From: Pseudopyrenochaeta lycopersici
Lineage: Eukaryota > Ascomycota > Dothideomycetes > Pleosporales > Pseudopyrenochaetaceae
Reading direction: 5' to 3'
Assembly: GCA_003313425.1 (NCBI GenBank)
Contig: NHZP01000007.1
Coordinates: forward strand, 1,426,001 to 1,490,000
DNA length: 64,000 nucleotides
Shown here: positions 28,464 to 57,888 of the stretch, one piece after another
Numbering within the stretch: the stretch's first letter is position 1
How the letters are laid out: every line of letters begins with the position of its first letter
Translations under genes and position numbers: made by a program
Notes under the pieces: generated by a model
The model's database searches: none
Seen by the model: only the letters and a program-made list of their open reading frames with translations
What the model was told of the DNA's origin: nothing

Positions 28464-30406
28464 ATGGCTGTGGAAAACTACGATATTGTCATTGTCGGTG
28501 CAGGCCCCGTCGGCCTTTGTCTTTCGACATGTCTCTCACGATGGGGTTACAAAATCAAGCACATCGACAACAGGCCAGAGCCGACACCAACTGGACGGGC
28601 GGATGGTATTCAACCCCGCTCGCTAGATCTTCTCCGGAATATGGGTCTCAAGCGCAAGATCATGGAGCATGAGCCCGCTAAAGTCTACGAAGTCGCATTC
28701 TGGGACCCGGCTGCCAAGGGTATCCACAGGACGGGAACTTGGGCCAGTTGCCCAAAGTTTATTGATGCGCGGTATCCATTCACAACGCTTCTGCACCAAG
28801 GCCTGATTGAGCGCGTTTTCATTGAGGATATTGAGAAGAATGGCACAAAGCTTCAAAGGCCATGGACCATTACTGGATTCAAGAACGATGGAAAGGATTC
28901 AACATACCCTGTCGAGGTTAACCTGGCGCATGTCGATGGCACCATGTCAGAGACTGTACGCGCAAAGTACCTGTTTAGTGGAGAGGGCGCAAGGAGCTTT
29001 GTACGAGATCAGTTAGGTGTCAAGATGATATACAAGGACCCCATTGCCCACGTTTGGGGCGTCATGGACGGAGTTGTGCGTACAAATTTCCCCGACATCA
29101 AGGTAAGAATATCCCCGGACCCTGTACTACACCACAATTCCTAACAGAGACTTAGATGAAATGCACAATTCACTCCGACGCCGGCTCCATCATGGTTATT
29201 CCCCGCGAAAACAATATGGTCCGCCTATACATCCAAGTCGCGAGCTCCACAGACAAGGATTGGGACCCCCGTAAGAGTAAGACAGCCGAAGAAGTTCAAC
29301 GCCAAGCTCAAGAAATTCTCAAGCCATACACCATATCATGGGACCGTGTAGAGTGGTACTCGGTCTATCCAATTGGCCAGGGCATTGCAGAGCGCTACAC
29401 ACTCGACGAGCGTGTGTTCATGGGAGGTGATTCGTGCCACACACACTCGCCAAAGGCAGGACAAGGCATGAACACAGCTTTCCTGGATGCGGTTAACCTC
29501 GCATGGAAGATTCATCATGTTGAGAACGGCTGGGCACCGAGATCTATGCTATCGACTTACGAATCCGAGCGCAAACTCATTGCCGAGACGCTGCTTGACT
29601 TCGACGCTCGATATGCAAAGCTCTTCTCCGCGCGTATTCCCTCAGCTGGCGAAGTCGCTGGTGCATCGAGTAACGCAACCGAAGACAATGAGTTCATCAA
29701 GACTTTCAAGGCATCTTGTGAATTTACATCTGGTTACGGCGTGGCCTACAACCCCAATGCTATCAACTGGGGTCCTGAGCATCCCGCCCAACATCCTCTC
29801 ATCCTGCAGCATGAGAAAGGTACTACTCAGCGAACTGGCAGAATCCTTACGGCCGCAACTGTAACCCGCGTTGTCGATGCCAATGTTGTGCATCTCGAGC
29901 AGGAAATTCCTCTCAACGGCTCATATCGCATTTTCATCTTCGGTGGGGCACCAGACAAGACCACAAGAGCACTTAAGGATCTAGCCTCCAGTATGAGCGC
30001 TCCAACTTCTTTCTTCTCAAACTTCCTCTTCAAGGACCTCAGCACAACAGACCGCTATCACGAGCGTCACAACCCACACACCTCTTTCGCGACTCTCGCC
30101 CTCATCTTCAACTCACCGCGCTCGAAAATTCACATTGACGAGCAGCTCCCGGAGACATTTGCGCGCTACGCAGACCACGTCTACGCCGACGACATCTGGG
30201 ACCAGCGTGTGCCAGACGCAAAGGCTTCAGCACACGCAAAAATGGGACTTGATGACCAGACGGGCGGTGTTGTTGTTGTCCGCCCTGATGGATACGTCGG
30301 TGTCGTTGTCAAGCTTGAGGAGGGTCAAGGCACCTGTGAAGCACTGAACAAGTACTTCGAGGTCGTTACAGGGAAGAAATTGGGTGCAGAAAAGGCGAGT
30401 TTGTAG
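28464..30406 (+). CDS. FAD-dependent phenol hydroxylase-like monooxygenase
   Basis: Two exons, 28464-29102 and 29156-30406, encode 629 aa. The Rossmann start [16 protein letters not shown] binds FAD. The substrate/FAD-contact region [14 protein letters not shown] and the GD motif [19 protein letters not shown] place it among class A flavoprotein aromatic hydroxylases. The C-terminal third has the thioredoxin-like phenol-hydroxylase dimerisation domain ([22 protein letters not shown]). Such enzymes hydroxylate phenols or 3-hydroxybenzoate-type aromatics with NAD(P)H and O2. Neighbours are unrelated, so the aromatic substrate is undetermined. The last residues (ASL) are not a canonical peroxisomal signal. 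Confidence 0.88.
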
Positions 30407-31143: not shown

Positions 31144-33700
31144 ATGTCATCTACTACATATCCTGATATCTATCGCACACCTTTATTGCCAGGCAAAATT
31201 CGCTTACTTCGCATATTGCCTCACGAGGACGACAAGGCGCCCATTCAATGTGAGCTCTTCCACTACTCTCTCCAGATTTCAGGCAGACGAGCCGATCCAT
31301 ATGATGCTTTATCCTATGTATGGGGTGACCCGGCCGAAACCCAGTCTATATGCGTACGCCAACCTAATTCCACAAACGAACACAATCTACTAGTGACAGA
31401 AAATCTTCATGGAGTTCTATCACGTCTCCGGTATCGCTATTTTGAACGAATTTTATGGGTAGATGCTGTTTGTATCAACCAGAAGGATGAGCGTGAGAAA
31501 GAGCGCCAAATCCGGTTGATGATCAAGATCTACGGTCAAGCAAGCCGTGTACTTGTTTGGCTTGGAGAGTCAGCGGATGACAGTGACTGTGCGCTTCAAG
31601 AGATAATCCGTGCTGGAGGCTACAAGCTAGGAGAACACTTAAACAACGAATCAAGTCACAAAGCTATAACAGCACTTCTTCGACGACCGTGGTTTCGGCG
31701 CATTTGGGTAAAGCAACTACCTTCTTGTCACCCTTACAAATTTAGTTGACTGATTTATCAAGGTCCTCCAAGAAGTTGCTGGTGCTCGACATGTTCTAAT
31801 CGTATGTGGAACTACGGAGGTCAATGGATATGCATTCTGCTTAGGCCTAGAGTCATTGGAGATTTTCCATAAGGCTCAGCGAGACTTGCTGGATTTGGTC
31901 CGTCCAGTGATCTACCTAATCAAGGAATCGATCTTTAGACCTGACTTCTCGATGAGTAATTCAGACAGTTCCTCCTCCCTCGATGTATGTTCACTAGGAG
32001 AACTAATGGATATGTATCACACCCATGAGGCTACTATGCGCCACGACAAGGTGTATGCCCTTTTAGGCATGAGCTCTGATGATCTTAGCAACGTTGGGTT
32101 GTTACCGGATTACAGTCTTCCTTGGGAGGAGCTCTTGCAGCGACTGGCCAAGTATCTGCTCTGTCAAAATATATCCGTAGAGACGTGGAACAGCGATAGA
32201 GAGTTGGCAATAATCAAGGGCAAAGGGTGTATCCTTGGCAAGGTTTTCTTAAATAAAACCAACGCAGGCTGGAGTAAGAGAGAAGGCGTTAACATTGAAT
32301 TCAGGGATGAAGAAGAGCACGTTCACTGGAACATTCAAGTGTCAGCAAACTCCATCAGAGATGGAGACATCCTCTGCCTTCTTGAAGGAGCCTCAAAGCC
32401 TACGATCATTCGACCACGGTATGAATATTTTGACATTATCGTAATTGCAGTCAGGCTCCCAGAATCGAGTTTCCTAAAAACGAAGAGATGCGTTTTCACC
32501 CGCGATTTGCTGCTTGCATGGGACTGGCAAATCTTCTCAGAGAAGTCTGGACACCAAGGAAATTATGCAGATTTATTGCAAACCAAGGCCAGAGTGTTGA
32601 ATTCCTTAAGCGAGTTTGAAGAAAAAATAGACAATTCAACTAGAATATGGAACGCTGCTCTGATACTGGGAGATGTTAAAGAATACGAAGAGGCAGAGAA
32701 GAAGCTTCTTATAGCTATCAAGGGTTATAGTGTAGCTATTGGTGTAGAACCGCATACACTTAAAAGTCAATACGGTCTGACACCGCTGTCATGGGCGGCA
32801 GGAAACGGATACTATGCTGTAGTACACCAGCTGCTTGAGAAAGGAAGCGCAAGGGTTGACCTAGAAATCAAGGATAGCCAGTATGGTCAGACATCATTAT
32901 CCTGGGCAGCAGGAAACGGGCACGGGGCAGTAGTGAAGCTACTGCTTGATACAAGCAAGGTTGGCGTTGATAGTAAGGATGTTCAGGGGCGCACACCGCT
33001 GTCGCGGGCAGCAGAGAACGGGCATGAGGCAGTAGTAAAGCTACTGCTTGATACAGGTAAGGTTGATGTTGATAGTAAAGATATTTATAGGCAAACGCCG
33101 CTGTGGTGGGCAGCAGAGAACGGGCATGAGGCAGTAGTAGAGCTACTGCTTGATACAGGCAAGGTTGACGTTAATAGCAAGGTTAATTATGAGCGGACGC
33201 CGCTGTCGCGGGCAGCAAGGAACGGGTATGAGGCAGTAGTAAAGCTACTGCTTGATACAGATAAGGTTGACGTTGGTAGCAAGGATATTTATAGGCAAAC
33301 GCCGCTGTCGTGGGCAGTAGAGAACGGGCATGAGGCAGTAGTGAAGCTCCTTCTTGATACAGGCAAGGTTAACGTTGATAGTAAGGATATTGATGGGCAA
33401 ACGCCGCTGTGGCGAGCCGCAGAGAACGGGCATGAGGCAGTAGTAAAGCTACTGCTCGATACAGGCATGGTTGACGTTAATAGCGAGGGTATTGATGGGC
33501 AAACGCCGCTGTGGCGAGCCGCAGAGAACGGGCATGAGGCAGTAGTAAAGCTACTGTTTGATACAGGCAAGGTTGACATTGATAGTAAGGATCGATATAA
33601 GCGGACGCCGCTGTCGCGGGCAGCATGGGACGGGCATGAGGCAGTAGTAAAGCTACTTCTTGATATAGACAAGGTTGATGTTGATAGTAAGGATGTTTAG
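31144..33700 (+). CDS. HET-domain protein with C-terminal ankyrin repeats
   Basis: Two exons, 31144-31707 and 31763-33700, encode 833 aa as read. The HET (heterokaryon incompatibility) domain occupies about residues 50-200, with YDALSYVWGDP, RILWVDAVCINQKDE, IYGQASRVLVWLGE and RPWFRRIWVLQEVAGA. A less conserved middle region of about 320 residues follows, then one divergent and eight near-identical 34-residue ankyrin repeats (TPLxxAAENGHEAVVKLLLD). HET proteins act in non-self recognition and can trigger cell death. Repeat domains on such proteins usually carry recognition and vary between strains. The frame ends abruptly in the loop of a repeat, and more ankyrin-coding sequence follows out of frame, so the present C-terminus looks truncated. 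Confidence 0.9.
32884..33700 (+). repeat. Tandem 102-nt ankyrin-coding repeats
   Basis: Eight head-to-tail 102-nt units (34 codons each) are so alike at the DNA level that stretches such as GAGGCAGTAGTAAAGCTACT recur almost unchanged. Differences concentrate at the variable beta-turn positions. This implies recent unit duplication or gene-conversion homogenisation. Confidence 0.9.
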
Positions 33701-34978: not shown

Positions 34979-34984
34979 AAAAAA
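34979..34984 (-). terminator. RNA polymerase III terminator of the tRNA gene
   Basis: Reading the minus strand, a run of six T residues begins 5 nt after the tRNA discriminator base. T runs of this length terminate Pol III. Confidence 0.8.
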
Positions 34985-34989
34985 GAAAC

Positions 34990-35132
34990 TGGTCAGTACG
35001 GGGGTCGAACCCGCGACCTTGGCGTATCAAGCAGAAGCTATTAGCACCACGCTCTAACCAACTCTATTGCATGTTAGTGATCTTGTTCCATCATCTCAAC
35101 TGTTGTGGGTTGAACTTACGAGCTAACCGACC
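34990..35132 (-). tRNA. tRNA-Ile(AAU) with two introns, one of mRNA type
   Basis: Exons on the minus strand are 35132-35120, 35063-35039 and 35025-34990. Joined, they give a 74-nt cloverleaf. The 7-bp acceptor stem is GGTCGGT against ACTGACC (one G-U). The D stem is GCTC/GAGC, with D loop AGTTGGTTA. The anticodon stem is TGGTG/CGCCA and the loop CTAATAA (anticodon AAU); the T arm is GCGGG-TTCGACC-CCCGT, and the discriminator is A. The 13-nt intron (35038-35026) sits at the universal 37/38 site. The second intron (35119-35064) interrupts the D arm between nucleotides 13 and 14. Box B (GGTTCGACC) is intact; box A is split by the D-arm intron. A standard scan would see only a fragment, because the 5' half lies 56 nt upstream. 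Confidence 0.85.
35064..35119 (-). other. Spliceosomal-type intron inside the tRNA D arm
   Basis: This 56-nt insertion begins GTAAGT, contains CACTAAC (a perfect fungal branch site, CTAAC) ending 9 nt before its terminal AG, and ends AATAG. Length and signals match the mRNA introns of neighbouring genes. Its exact removal restores both the D stem and the acceptor pairing. Confidence 0.75.
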
Positions 35133-37465
35133 ATGTTATTTGATTCGATGGATTACAATCGGACAAGACAATATATATTCTGCTTTTGAAAAAAGTGAGG
35201 GGAAAAGCCGGATGCGGCGGAGTGGAAAATTGCGCATGTGATTGGGGTGGGGATGGTTGCGTGAAAAAGTTTTTAGGTCATGGACAGGGGCCGCGGGGAG
35301 GTGGGGGTTTGAACTACCGGTCCATGGGTGGTTTTTTGCATGGGTGCAACAGGATTGACGAGAAAGAGTTTCTCTATGGCAGGGAATGTTTACGCTTCGA
35401 TCTAATTGATTTTCGTCAAATTTCCATCAATTTTCTCCTTGGGATTTTCACGTCTGCTTTGGAACTGATTCAATTGTACATGAGTCTATTCTCATGTGCT
35501 CTGAAACTTTTCACACTAGTCACACCTTCTTCCTGCGTAAATAGTCTATGAGCCTGAGATGTCAGAGCAACCAAACAGTATTCTCAGCATTGCAGGGAAC
35601 GGGCGAAATCCAATGCGTCGGGCCCAAAAAAAAAACTCCAACCAGACACCTCCCACCACCCCTCAGCTCGCGAATATGCACCACAACCATTCGTATTCGG
35701 TACCTTCGGAGCTGTCAATCCCCTTCCAGAAGCCGCACTGTCGATCATAATGTGTAACTGCATATGCCGTACTCGTTTCGACTGGCTGAACCCAGCCAAC
35801 CGAACTTGGCTGCTAGCCCACACTTACACCAGCACAACAGGAGCAGGAGCAGCAGCGGAAATGAGCCAAAGCAGTTCGGCGTCGGTTCCCCTCTCCCCCC
35901 CGTTTCAAACACAGACCGCATGTTGATGTCATACCTAGTACTACATCCGTGCCACAAGCAGCAGCGAGCGGTGGGGCTGCCGACTGGATTCGCTTGGAGG
36001 CGGTTTGGCGTAACGTTGTAGGGCTGGGATTACGGCGCTGGGGGATCGACATTGCTGCAGCTTTAGGGAAGCCATGGATCCGATGGAGTGGGAATTCTCC
36101 GACTGCTGTGCTATGCAGCGGTGTCGGGGAAGCTTGGAGTTTTGTGTTGGGATATAGTGCAAGTAAGAGTCGATATGTTTTCGTGAGGCTAACTTGTCGG
36201 CTTGTACGATAGAGCGCATATGAGCGCGAGGCTCTTTAGATTTGTCTGTGAGAAAGTACTACATTCGGGCAGTCATGTCAAGCAAATGGCCAACACCTCT
36301 GCCCGAGCTTAAACTTGCGCGAGTTTGTTACTTGCAATGCCATATCCGGGTAGCACTACAGTGGCGGTGAATCGAACTTTTCCCATCTTACCTCTTCTCT
36401 GGAAGCCCATTGTTCATTGGACAAGAGTACGTCCAGCGAATCAAACATTACCCTGGGAAAGGGGTTGCCGTTTGATTAGCCATCTGACACTCTGAAGCTG
36501 TCGTGCAACGAAATGAGGGCGCTCGTACGACTGACTTGTACAGGCCGGTTACCAACACTGACTCTGTTAGGTTATAGACAAAGCTGCAGGCTCATCAAGT
36601 GGGATAACTCAATGCTTTGTGGTGACATAGTAAATGCCATGGCCTTGGAGATGGGATTGCTGGACCTTTGTGTCATTGAAAAATTGCAGGGGTAGTTACG
36701 AGGGAGTCGGAAGGGCTTCGGCAATCTGTAATATGAGGGAAAGGTAAATTTAATTTGAATGGGCGTTGGGACATTCATGGGCAGTGTTGGTGGGGAGATG
36801 GCAGGAGGATGTCTCGGAGGGAACCCGGGTGATGGCGAAATCGTCTTATTTCAATACTGCTCCCATTCAACCCATCAGTCCATTGCGGCTCGTGTCAAAT
36901 CATATCGTAAATCAATACCCCGGAATTTTCTCCTACAGCACCGGAAACAATACATATTAAGCCGTCTTCATTGCTGAGACGGAGAACGTAACGTAGGACA
37001 CAATCGAGTCGAACCGGGTATATCTTGTGATGCCTGCCCAAAATGCTGTCGTTGCCACCAGCTCCACACGCTAGATGCAGAGTCGCCGAAGCGGCAAGAA
37101 GAAAGAATCAGATGCTCAGAGAGCTGTAAGATGAGAAAGTGTATGGATCGGGGCGGGGAAGGCGGAATATACTCATGAACGATAGTGAAGGAAAAATACC
37201 CAATGTGGAACAAGATGTAGTAACGCCCGCTTAAGCATGCAAGTGATGTGAAACAGCAATTTCTCCCAATACGTCGACTTTGAATGCTTTCGCGACTCAG
37301 AATCCTTGGTTTCTAGGTTTGGGCTAAGTCGCGAAGATCCTAGCCTATTCTGAGGCAAGATGTTCCAAAGGAGACGAGAGGGCCACCATACTATCCCTGT
37401 GATAGCGCCCCTAGCGTCTCAGGTGTCCCTGCCGGAGCTTTGCCGGTATCTCCCGATTTTCCAGG
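35133..37465. other. 2.3-kb gene-free region
   Basis: It holds the 5' flank of the tRNA gene and the 3' flank of the Zn2Cys6 gene. The many short frames overlap in several phases with no family signal. Two sequences resembling TCGAAC T-loops (near 36372 and 37009) lack flanking stems. Confidence 0.45.
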
Positions 37466-55971: not shown

Positions 55972-57888
55972 TCATCGCTGCGGTCGGTAAGGCTGCACCT
56001 CGTGATGTGGCCGTTCGTGGTAGAAGAGATTCTCTGACCAAGGTGGCAGCTTCTTATCTCGTTCATAAAGATATCCACAGTTGTTGCAGAGGGTACGTGG
56101 GCCACGTGGGCCGTCGCGGACAGCCCAAACGGCAGTCCCCCATACCCAGCAGTGTGCGCATCGCCATGTCTGTCGCTCCCTGAACTATGCATTAGATCTG
56201 ATCTCACACAATCCAAATGAGGCACTTACCCTTCTTGCAGTCCGCCATCCTGCCCACCATATCCAGACCCGGCTCCAGGAGTGCCTCGGCCAACAGGACT
56301 AAGGCTCCTGAACCTCCTCTTCTTTTTGCTACGCTCACCACGTCCCATGTTTTCTTGCTGTTCGATATTGTTGAAGAATTCGTTCTGCGGTGTACCTGTC
56401 ATGTTCGCAGTCGATGAAAAGCGCGCTGTCTCTCTCCGTAATCTTCGAATCTGCCTTTCACGGTCGCCCTCGCGCTTCTCTATCTCTTCAGGCGACAAGA
56501 TCTCGACTTTGGGCTCCCATTCGTCACAAAGGTGCTCCTGGTCGTATCGCCAACCTGCACCGATTGCGGGCTCTACGGCATCGTTATCGATCTCTCCATC
56601 ACCGACTAGTCCGCCATTTTCGCATGCTTCCTTCTTAAGCCTGAGTACTGCTTCGTAGATAGCATGTGTCATCGAGGACGCCCACTCTCCGGATAGCCCC
56701 AAATCTGCGCAGGTAACTTTGGCGAACATTTCAGCGAATCCTGGTGGATGTAGAAGCGACCATTCGAACTTGTCAGTGTAAAGCCGATTCATGAGGTTGA
56801 TGTTTAACGTGACGATGCAACGATAGGTGTCGTCGGGGTTATGCAACTCCTCAGAAGGCAGCGCGGCGGCGGCAGCGCTGATGCCATTCGGTATGCCAGT
56901 TGGAGTGTGTACGCCATCTGTCTGTGTTGTGCCATTTACGATGCCATTTACGACAGGGGTGGCGACGCCATTGGTGGCTGGCAGAGCGGGTGTTGAGGTC
57001 CCGTCGCGGGACAACGCAGGAAGAATGGGCTTCTTCGTAGTTCCTTCCAGCGTATGAGATGCTGTCGAGTGGAAAAGTGGATGTAGGGCGACCCCAGCGT
57101 ATTCCTCCAGCTGCTGGCGGATCTGGTTTGCGATGTTCAAGATAAGGAGTGGCTTTCGGTCATTCGGAAGATCCAGCTCGTCCACAAATTGCTTCGCGAA
57201 CTGGTCTGGGGTGGTTAAGGCTTCATGCAGATTCCAAAGAAACGTATCATGTAACCTGTAGGCAGGTGTGACGTCTGGTTGTTTGTATGCTGGCAGGCTC
57301 TCATTGATGCCGAAGTCCCGCGCATTGGAAGGTGTCGGTAACGGCGCATCTGGGCGGAAGGCCTGGATATCCATGTCTATCCGAATGGGTATCAATGTGA
57401 CTGGCAGAACCGACTGTGTCTGCACCTGCTTCTCTGTCCTGAACATTGTGTTAGCCCTGGCCAAAGGCATTCAACGCCCCACTCCCGAGCCCTGCCCGTA
57501 TTGACACTCACAAGGTACGTTTTGGCCTTCCCATCCAGTCTCGCCAGATGCCTTGAAGTTCCACCGGCGCCGCAAGCTCCTCCCCTAACGCCGCTATTTG
57601 CGCCGTCTTGTCCAAGTGCGACGGATCCTCCCTCTGGATACTGCGCAGACCGGTCGCACGCCGTGGGCGATCGCTGTCCTCAAAGTCATCGTCGTCGTAG
57701 GCGTCTTCTGCATAGCTGAGAACAGCCGTTCCGCGCTTCGTCACGCGCGGCGCAGGAAGAGTGTTCGAGGGCGGAACAATTGGCGAAATGAGAGAGTTGC
57801 CGTGGGAGCGCAATCGCGGCGCATAGCTCGACATGAATGCCTGCGGCGGCGCCGTCTTTCCTGCGCTTGTAAACATGGCTGTTGACAC
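55972..57888 (-). CDS. SNF5/SFH1/INI1-type chromatin-remodelling subunit with C-terminal GATA-like finger
   Basis: Exons are 57888-57512, 57438-56230 and 56179-55972, encoding 597 aa. The SNF5 domain comprises VLPVTLIPIRIDMDIQ, DTFLWNLHEALTTPDQFAK, two winged repeats, NINLMNRLYTDKFEWSL and WASSMTHAIYEAVLRLKKE. An Arg/Ser-rich nuclear segment follows. The third exon is joined through a 50-nt GTAAGT intron and encodes a finger, WRCAHC...RDGPRGPRTLCNNCG (C-x2-C, 21-residue loop, C-x2-C), then YLYERDKKLPPW. Without that splice the protein would stop at LQEG. SNF5 family members are core subunits of SWI/SNF or RSC remodellers; which complex is not decided here. A second ATG at 57876 is an alternative start. 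Confidence 0.9.

Follow-up and report, generated by a model that had tools for sequence, protein, structure and literature searches.

mRNA-type introns in a tRNA-Ile(AAU) gene and other nuclear tRNA genes of Pseudopyrenochaeta lycopersici

Fungal U6 snRNA genes can contain a short GT–AG intron with a branch motif inside a Pol III RNA gene, and fungal U3 snoRNA genes are interrupted by introns with canonical donor and branch signals in a small structured RNA, where interrupted and uninterrupted paralogs can coexist. In the accessible part of PMC5832005, which also covers these U3 introns, U3 and U6 are the only small structured RNAs known as often interrupted by introns, and tRNAs are absent from that account. 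The introns of eukaryotic tRNA genes lie canonically at position 37/38, and tRNA splicing is classed as spliceosome-independent in the available text of a 2026 review (PMC13149111). Non-canonical introns of eukaryotic tRNA genes are supposedly rare, with algal cases described, and D- or T-arm insertions in one of several synonymous genes are read as signs of a pseudogene (PMC4090602, accessible part). In red algae and nucleomorphs such introns interrupt the D, T and anticodon arms, sometimes several in one gene; those of Guillardia are 3–24 nt long and those of Cyanidioschyzon form a bulge–helix–bulge (PMC4090602 and PMC3978253, accessible parts). Within the open-access literature, which leaves most subscription papers outside its scope, we found no description of spliceosomal introns in tRNA genes.

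The tRNA-Ile(AAU) gene described here, from a window of 64,000 nt (the whole stretch of DNA that was analysed), resembles each of these systems in part, as do the other interrupted tRNA genes of the same genome. A short GT–AG intron with a branch motif is shared with U6, canonical splice signals in a small structured RNA with U3, interruption of several arms with the algal genes, and a canonical 37/38 intron with other eukaryotic tRNA genes. U6, however, is itself a part of the spliceosome, whereas the hosts here are tRNAs, with up to three such introns plus an endonuclease intron. The introns also differ from the algal ones in being 50–64 nt long, with donor, branch and acceptor signals and no bulge–helix–bulge core, and from the canonical ones in occupying 10 other positions and carrying mRNA-type signals. 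We consider it very probable that they are U2-type spliceosomal introns in the Pol III precursors of nuclear tRNAs, which they would have entered at many positions. The window gene has the following parts:

34990..35132, minus strand: tRNA-Ile(AAU) gene, three exons, 143 nt, with a D-arm GT–AG intron and a 37/38 intron
35171..35177, minus strand: TATA-like element TATATAT, ~45 nt upstream of the tRNA 5′ end
35120..35132, minus strand: 5′ exon, tRNA positions 1–13, delimited by paralogs without the insert on contig C2
35064..35119, minus strand: mRNA-type intron, 56 nt, between positions 13 and 14
35114..35119, minus strand: donor GTAAGT, read from the sequence
35073..35079, minus strand: branch motif CACTAAC, read from the sequence; its last base is followed by 9 more to the intron end
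35064..35065, minus strand: acceptor AG; the intron ends AATAG
35039..35063, minus strand: middle exon, positions 14–37, with the anticodon AAT at 35040-35042
35026..35038, minus strand: 13-nt intron at 37/38, the usual endonuclease site, with the same length and place in both C2 paralogs
34990..35025, minus strand: 3′ exon, T arm and 3′ strand of the acceptor stem
35001..35011, minus strand: B box GGTTCGACCCC, intact
34979..34984, minus strand: T6 run, a Pol III-type terminator, intact

The 56-nt insert splits the D stem from the D loop, within the A box. Without it 87 nt are left, with a D stem of GCTC/GAGC. ARAGORN run without introns finds no tRNA in the raw window and makes no call at the raw locus even with anticodon introns of 0–60 nt allowed; once the insert is taken out, it calls tRNA-Ile(aat). 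An earlier note on this DNA had described a tRNA-Ile gene interrupted in the D arm at 35064-35119, restored by joining the two pieces and accompanied by a 13-nt intron at 37/38, a B box and a T6 run, and all of this is borne out. Its account of the intron signals holds for GTAAGT, CACTAAC, AATAG and the length of 56 nt, but not for a branch A 10 nt before the final AG: the branch A, by consensus probably the one at 35074, lies 10 nt from the intron end, which is 8 nt before the AG.

With the mature tRNA-Ile(AAU) as query, three loci were found in the genome: the window gene, on contig C7, and two genes on C2. These read GCTCAGTTGG at the insertion site, and the window gene reads GCTC-insert-AGTTGG.

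C2:351181-351267: tRNA-Ile(AAU) paralog without the insert, with a 13-nt 37/38 intron
C2:348412-348499: tRNA-Ile(AAU) paralog without the insert, with a 13-nt 37/38 intron

Because the two paralogs read across the site, the boundary of the insert is fixed independently of the splice motifs; it leaves no room for a shift of even one base in either direction, and the insert starts with GT and ends with AG. The window gene differs from C2:351181 at four stem bases (positions 6, 52, 62 and 67) and at two bases of the 37/38 intron. The four stem differences form two compensatory pairs, 6–67 (C–G to G–C) and 52–62 (A–T to G–C). The 56-nt insert was found once in the whole genome. Intact copies of the kind that the earlier note had set against its own reading thus do exist, and because of them the window locus may be dispensable.

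The window gene is one member of a class in this genome and no lone oddity. Seventeen mRNA-type introns interrupt 12 of the 70 nuclear tRNA genes located in the same 62.7-Mb, 188-contig genome (63 of the 70 were read), a proportion that is no unbiased rate because the B-box set comprised 100 of 275 matches, all on C1-C8, and sequence was obtained for 74 of the 82 chosen regions. Protein similarity places this genome in the Pleosporales: the closest named proteins are those of Cucurbitaria berberidis and Neocucurbitaria (88–89%) and, for a second gene, of Plenodomus and further Pleosporales (up to 88%). The introns are spread over 10 tRNA positions, from the D arm through to the acceptor stem, and none is at 37/38. 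Position numbers were assigned by reading of the cloverleafs:

Ile(AAU), C7 (the window gene): intron at 13/14
Gln(CUG), C6: intron at 11/12
Gln(CUG), C39: intron at 11/12
Gln(CUG), C1: intron at 19/20
His, C7: intron at 11/12
His, C3: introns at 11/12 and 58/59
Leu(UAG), C7: intron at 13/14
Leu(CAG), C3: introns at 15/16 and 58/59
Asp, C5: introns at 15/16, 30/31 and 49/50
Arg(ACG), C16: intron at 55/56
Ile(UAU), C8: intron at 68/69
Pro, C15: introns at 11/12 and 26/27

All 17 introns begin with GT and end with YAG. The donors are GTAAGT (8), GTACGT (3), GTATGT (2), GTGAGT (2), GTAAGC (1) and GTTTGT (1), the acceptors CAG (14) and TAG (3), and a YTRAY branch motif lies 9–13 nt from the intron end in 16 of the 17. 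The exception is the first intron of Leu(CAG) on C3, a weak case with the GTTTGT donor and no consensus branch. For comparison we used three mRNA introns of the window:

29103..29155, plus strand: intron of a phenol 2-monooxygenase-like gene, 53 nt, located by tblastn with homologs, ends set by eye
56180..56229, minus strand: intron of an SFH1-like gene, 50 nt, located with homologs, ends set by eye
57439-57511, minus strand: other intron of the SFH1-like gene, 73 nt, located with homologs, ends set by eye

All three, a small set, have GTRAG donors and CTAAC or CTAAT close to the 3′ end. The likeness of the 56-nt insert to local mRNA introns, as proposed earlier, is upheld against these lengths of 50, 53 and 73 nt. 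In donor and acceptor consensus, branch motif and a length like that of local mRNA introns (with n=3 for the latter), the tRNA introns have the features of U2-type introns. Self-splicing introns of group I or group II were considered and rejected, 50–64 nt being too short; their catalytic cores comprise hundreds of nucleotides. The window contains no match to an Rfam family at gathering score.

To ask how specific these motifs are, we cut each GT[AGT]NG[TCA]..branch..YAG segment of 44–99 nt from 157 loci and counted the loci where a well-formed tRNA then spanned the junction. The real motif pair restored a tRNA at 10 of the 157 loci (373 variants). No locus was restored by any of six decoy motif pairs held to the same branch requirement (0 loci each with 611, 315, 318, 316, 444 and 387 variants; 2,391 in total), nor by the reversed sequences (0 loci, 734 variants). 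With the branch demand dropped, the real pair again restored 10 loci (1,907 variants), whereas the counts for the decoys were 3, 2, 2, 0, 1 and 0. Asp and His on C3 are outside the 10 restored loci, as they need more than one removal; an Arg(CCG) entry was rejected as spurious and not counted, the removed piece lying at its 5′ edge. ARAGORN with anticodon introns allowed fails on all 12 raw genes: 11 give nothing, and Gln on C1, with a GTGAGT..CAACTAAC..CAG piece in the D loop, is miscalled as Met. After removal of the introns it finds a tRNA in all 12 and assigns the expected isotype to 11, all but Arg(ACG), which it takes for Thr.

The same genome has pieces of this kind in a U6 gene and a U3 gene, which were assigned by eye from family matches:

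C19:201228 onward: U6 locus
C14:415719-415826: U6 locus
C7:1164614-1164830: U3 snoRNA gene, with a 57-nt piece GTGAGC..GCTAAC..CAG near the 5′ end

A 52-nt piece, GTTCGT..GACTAAC..CAG, separates GCTCA from ATC in one U6 locus, and the other is without it. Both carry, in CTGCAC-N-AAGG, one base more than what we take to be the usual U6 sequence.

These observations suggest a pathway in which Pol III would transcribe the interrupted genes from the TATA-like element and the remaining A and B boxes, and in the nucleus the spliceosome would excise one or more GT–AG introns. Folding of the tRNA body could follow, after which the tRNA endonuclease and ligase would remove the 37/38 intron. From the sequence we infer that the spliceosome is what removes the GT–AG introns, that the two steps run in this order and that the mature tRNAs are used. 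The earlier note's reading of the D-arm insert as a spliceosomal intron beside a 37/38 intron fits the sequence tests run, and the anatomy that it described recurs in 12 genes.

The interrupted copies might instead be pseudogenes, intron or intron-like DNA having landed in redundant tRNA genes that yield no functional tRNA; this is how PMC4090602, in its accessible part, reads such insertions. Uninterrupted copies are indeed present for Ile(AAU) (the two on C2), Arg, Pro, Asp, Leu(UAG) and Leu(CAG). The pseudogene account is weakened, however, because every gene found for Gln(CUG) (3/3, from a query that included Gln), His (2/2) and Ile(UAU) (a single gene) is interrupted. The exons, moreover, are unchanged while the introns have diverged. 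With the 37/38 intron set aside, the three Gln genes agree in every exon base, the two His genes likewise, and the interrupted Arg(ACG) and Pro(AGG) genes agree in the same way with their uninterrupted copies. The introns at 11/12 are 78% identical between Gln on C6 and C39 and 70% identical in the His pair, against shuffle 99th percentiles of 66% and 67%. In each of these two pairs an older shared intron seems to have drifted while the tRNA stayed the same; the exon identity could alternatively have arisen through gene conversion. The stem changes in the Ile gene are compensatory, and the Asp gene contains three GT–AG introns yet gives a complete cloverleaf after their removal. A genuine broken copy looks different: the tRNA-Val(AAC) fragment at C2:901346-901381 stops after its first 36 nt, where unrelated DNA begins. 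We therefore regard pseudogenes as a very unlikely explanation of the class.

Alternatively, the introns could be non-canonical ones of the endonuclease type, as in red algae, nucleomorphs and archaea, with cleavage at a bulge–helix–bulge and joining by the tRNA ligase; endonuclease introns at D- and T-arm positions are known from Cyanidioschyzon and nucleomorphs (accessible parts of PMC4090602 and PMC3978253), and the interrupted genes here have 37/38 introns as well. We looked for a bulge–helix–bulge, which the earlier note had named as evidence that would count against it, as a 4-bp core between exon end and intron end in two registers; 0 of the 17 introns has a complete core, in a search run without a positive control on known endonuclease introns and for a motif that eukaryotic enzymes do not strictly need. 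Endonuclease introns need no GT, branch or AG, whereas GT and YAG are present here in 17/17 and a branch motif in 16/17, and the lengths match those of mRNA introns. With 10 positions other than 37/38 in addition, introns of the endonuclease type were rejected as extremely improbable. A further account, spliceosomal introns in genes that Pol II transcribes within longer RNAs, would suit the usual coupling of spliceosome assembly to Pol II and the splitting of internal promoter elements, since introns interrupt the A box (positions 8–19) in 9 of the 12 genes, the window gene among them, and the B box in 3 (Arg, Leu(CAG) and His on C3). Against Pol II, a run of T4–T7 starts within 17 nt after 11 of the 12 genes, and after the 12th, Arg, a tRNA-Gly follows at 14 nt. 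Of the 10 genes whose upstream sequence is long enough (Asp and His on C3 are not in this count), 8 have a TATA-like element at 38–57 nt upstream; this is in the range for located tRNA genes, where 27 of the 51 upstream regions, the Arg gene being one of the 51, have such an element at 25–60 nt. No T run within the 17 introns is longer than four, and two introns have one of four; U6, a Pol III gene, carries such an intron in the same genome. Transcription by Pol II is thus highly improbable, and from the signals listed we infer Pol III as the polymerase of the interrupted genes.

At C16:676438-676675 the interrupted tRNA-Arg(ACG) is separated by 14 nt, with no T4 between, from a tRNA-Gly(GCC), and the two are perhaps made as a joint two-tRNA transcript. 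The Arg intron contains AGTTCGAATCC, one letter off the consensus B box.

As to the origin of the introns, none of six comparisons between introns at the same site in different isotypes reaches the 99th percentile of shuffles, and no common source is seen in them, which suggests that introns of different isotypes at one site are separate gains. One spreading element was rejected as the source on the same comparisons and on the single occurrence of the Ile intron. Gain and loss of these introns could be dated cleanly because the tRNA exons align without doubt.

If all His, Gln(CUG) and Ile(UAU) genes carry spliceosomal introns, the spliceosome would be a compulsory tRNA processor in this fungal lineage: the decoding of His, CAG and AUA codons would need two successive splicing systems on Pol III transcripts, and a spliceosome block would directly deplete these tRNAs. 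We lean slightly towards this conclusion, its probability being lowered by gaps in the census (seven places unread and several isotypes missing), which also weigh a little on the spliceosomal reading as a whole. Genome-wide patterns spanning the 5′ insertion sites, with ≤3 mismatches, found no uninterrupted 5′ half of Gln or His; as a control, the same tool recovers an uninterrupted Ile copy on C2 and one place on C30. Divergent uninterrupted copies of His, Gln or Ile(UAU) could exist in the genome because the tRNA census is incomplete. In budding yeast CDC65 is single-copy and essential. The accessible part of PMC5348972 has CDC65, as tRNA-Gln(CUG), in a table of cell-cycle genes.

Should the spliceosomal reading be right, one tRNA precursor would need both splicing systems, contrary to the view of tRNA splicing as spliceosome-independent, and spliceosomal introns could colonise Pol III genes well past U6 and U3. 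The spliceosome would define very short exons, namely a 3′ piece with 5 nt of tRNA before the trailer and internal exons of 14 and 15 nt. Pol III transcription would tolerate split A and B boxes, and the cellular capacity for splicing would directly limit translation. For annotation, the failure of ARAGORN on all 12 raw genes is a warning.

The census itself was assembled from several searches. Seven of the 70 nuclear tRNA places are known as sequence matches only (C2:903864, C5:996867, C11:777319, C11:895990, C13:620409, C18:765417 and C20:698200). Left out of the 70 are the matches on contig C107, the duplicate entries of three places, the place on C30 and the Val fragment at C2:901346. With RF00005, 63 of 2,106 candidates were scored, and known genes escaped this search; of ten further tRNA queries two matched (initiator Met and Pro), the other eight finding nothing. 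Nuclear genes for Phe, Tyr, Trp, Asn and Gln(UUG), interrupted or not, are missing from this incomplete census. The exact Gln exon had 0 matches in viral and prokaryote contigs, as did the exact His exon in viral contigs.

Introns at 37/38 are frequent in the nuclear tRNA genes of this genome, including those of the Gly, Ala, Cys and Asp isotypes. Contig C107 (45,414 bases), which we take to be mitochondrial, is dense in tRNA genes, and several of its tRNA matches repeat 32.6 kb apart, as though the assembly had run more than once round a circular genome. In the window, a few kb from the tRNA gene, a long ankyrin-repeat open frame with repeat units that are near-identical in DNA occupies 31856-33700 on the plus strand.
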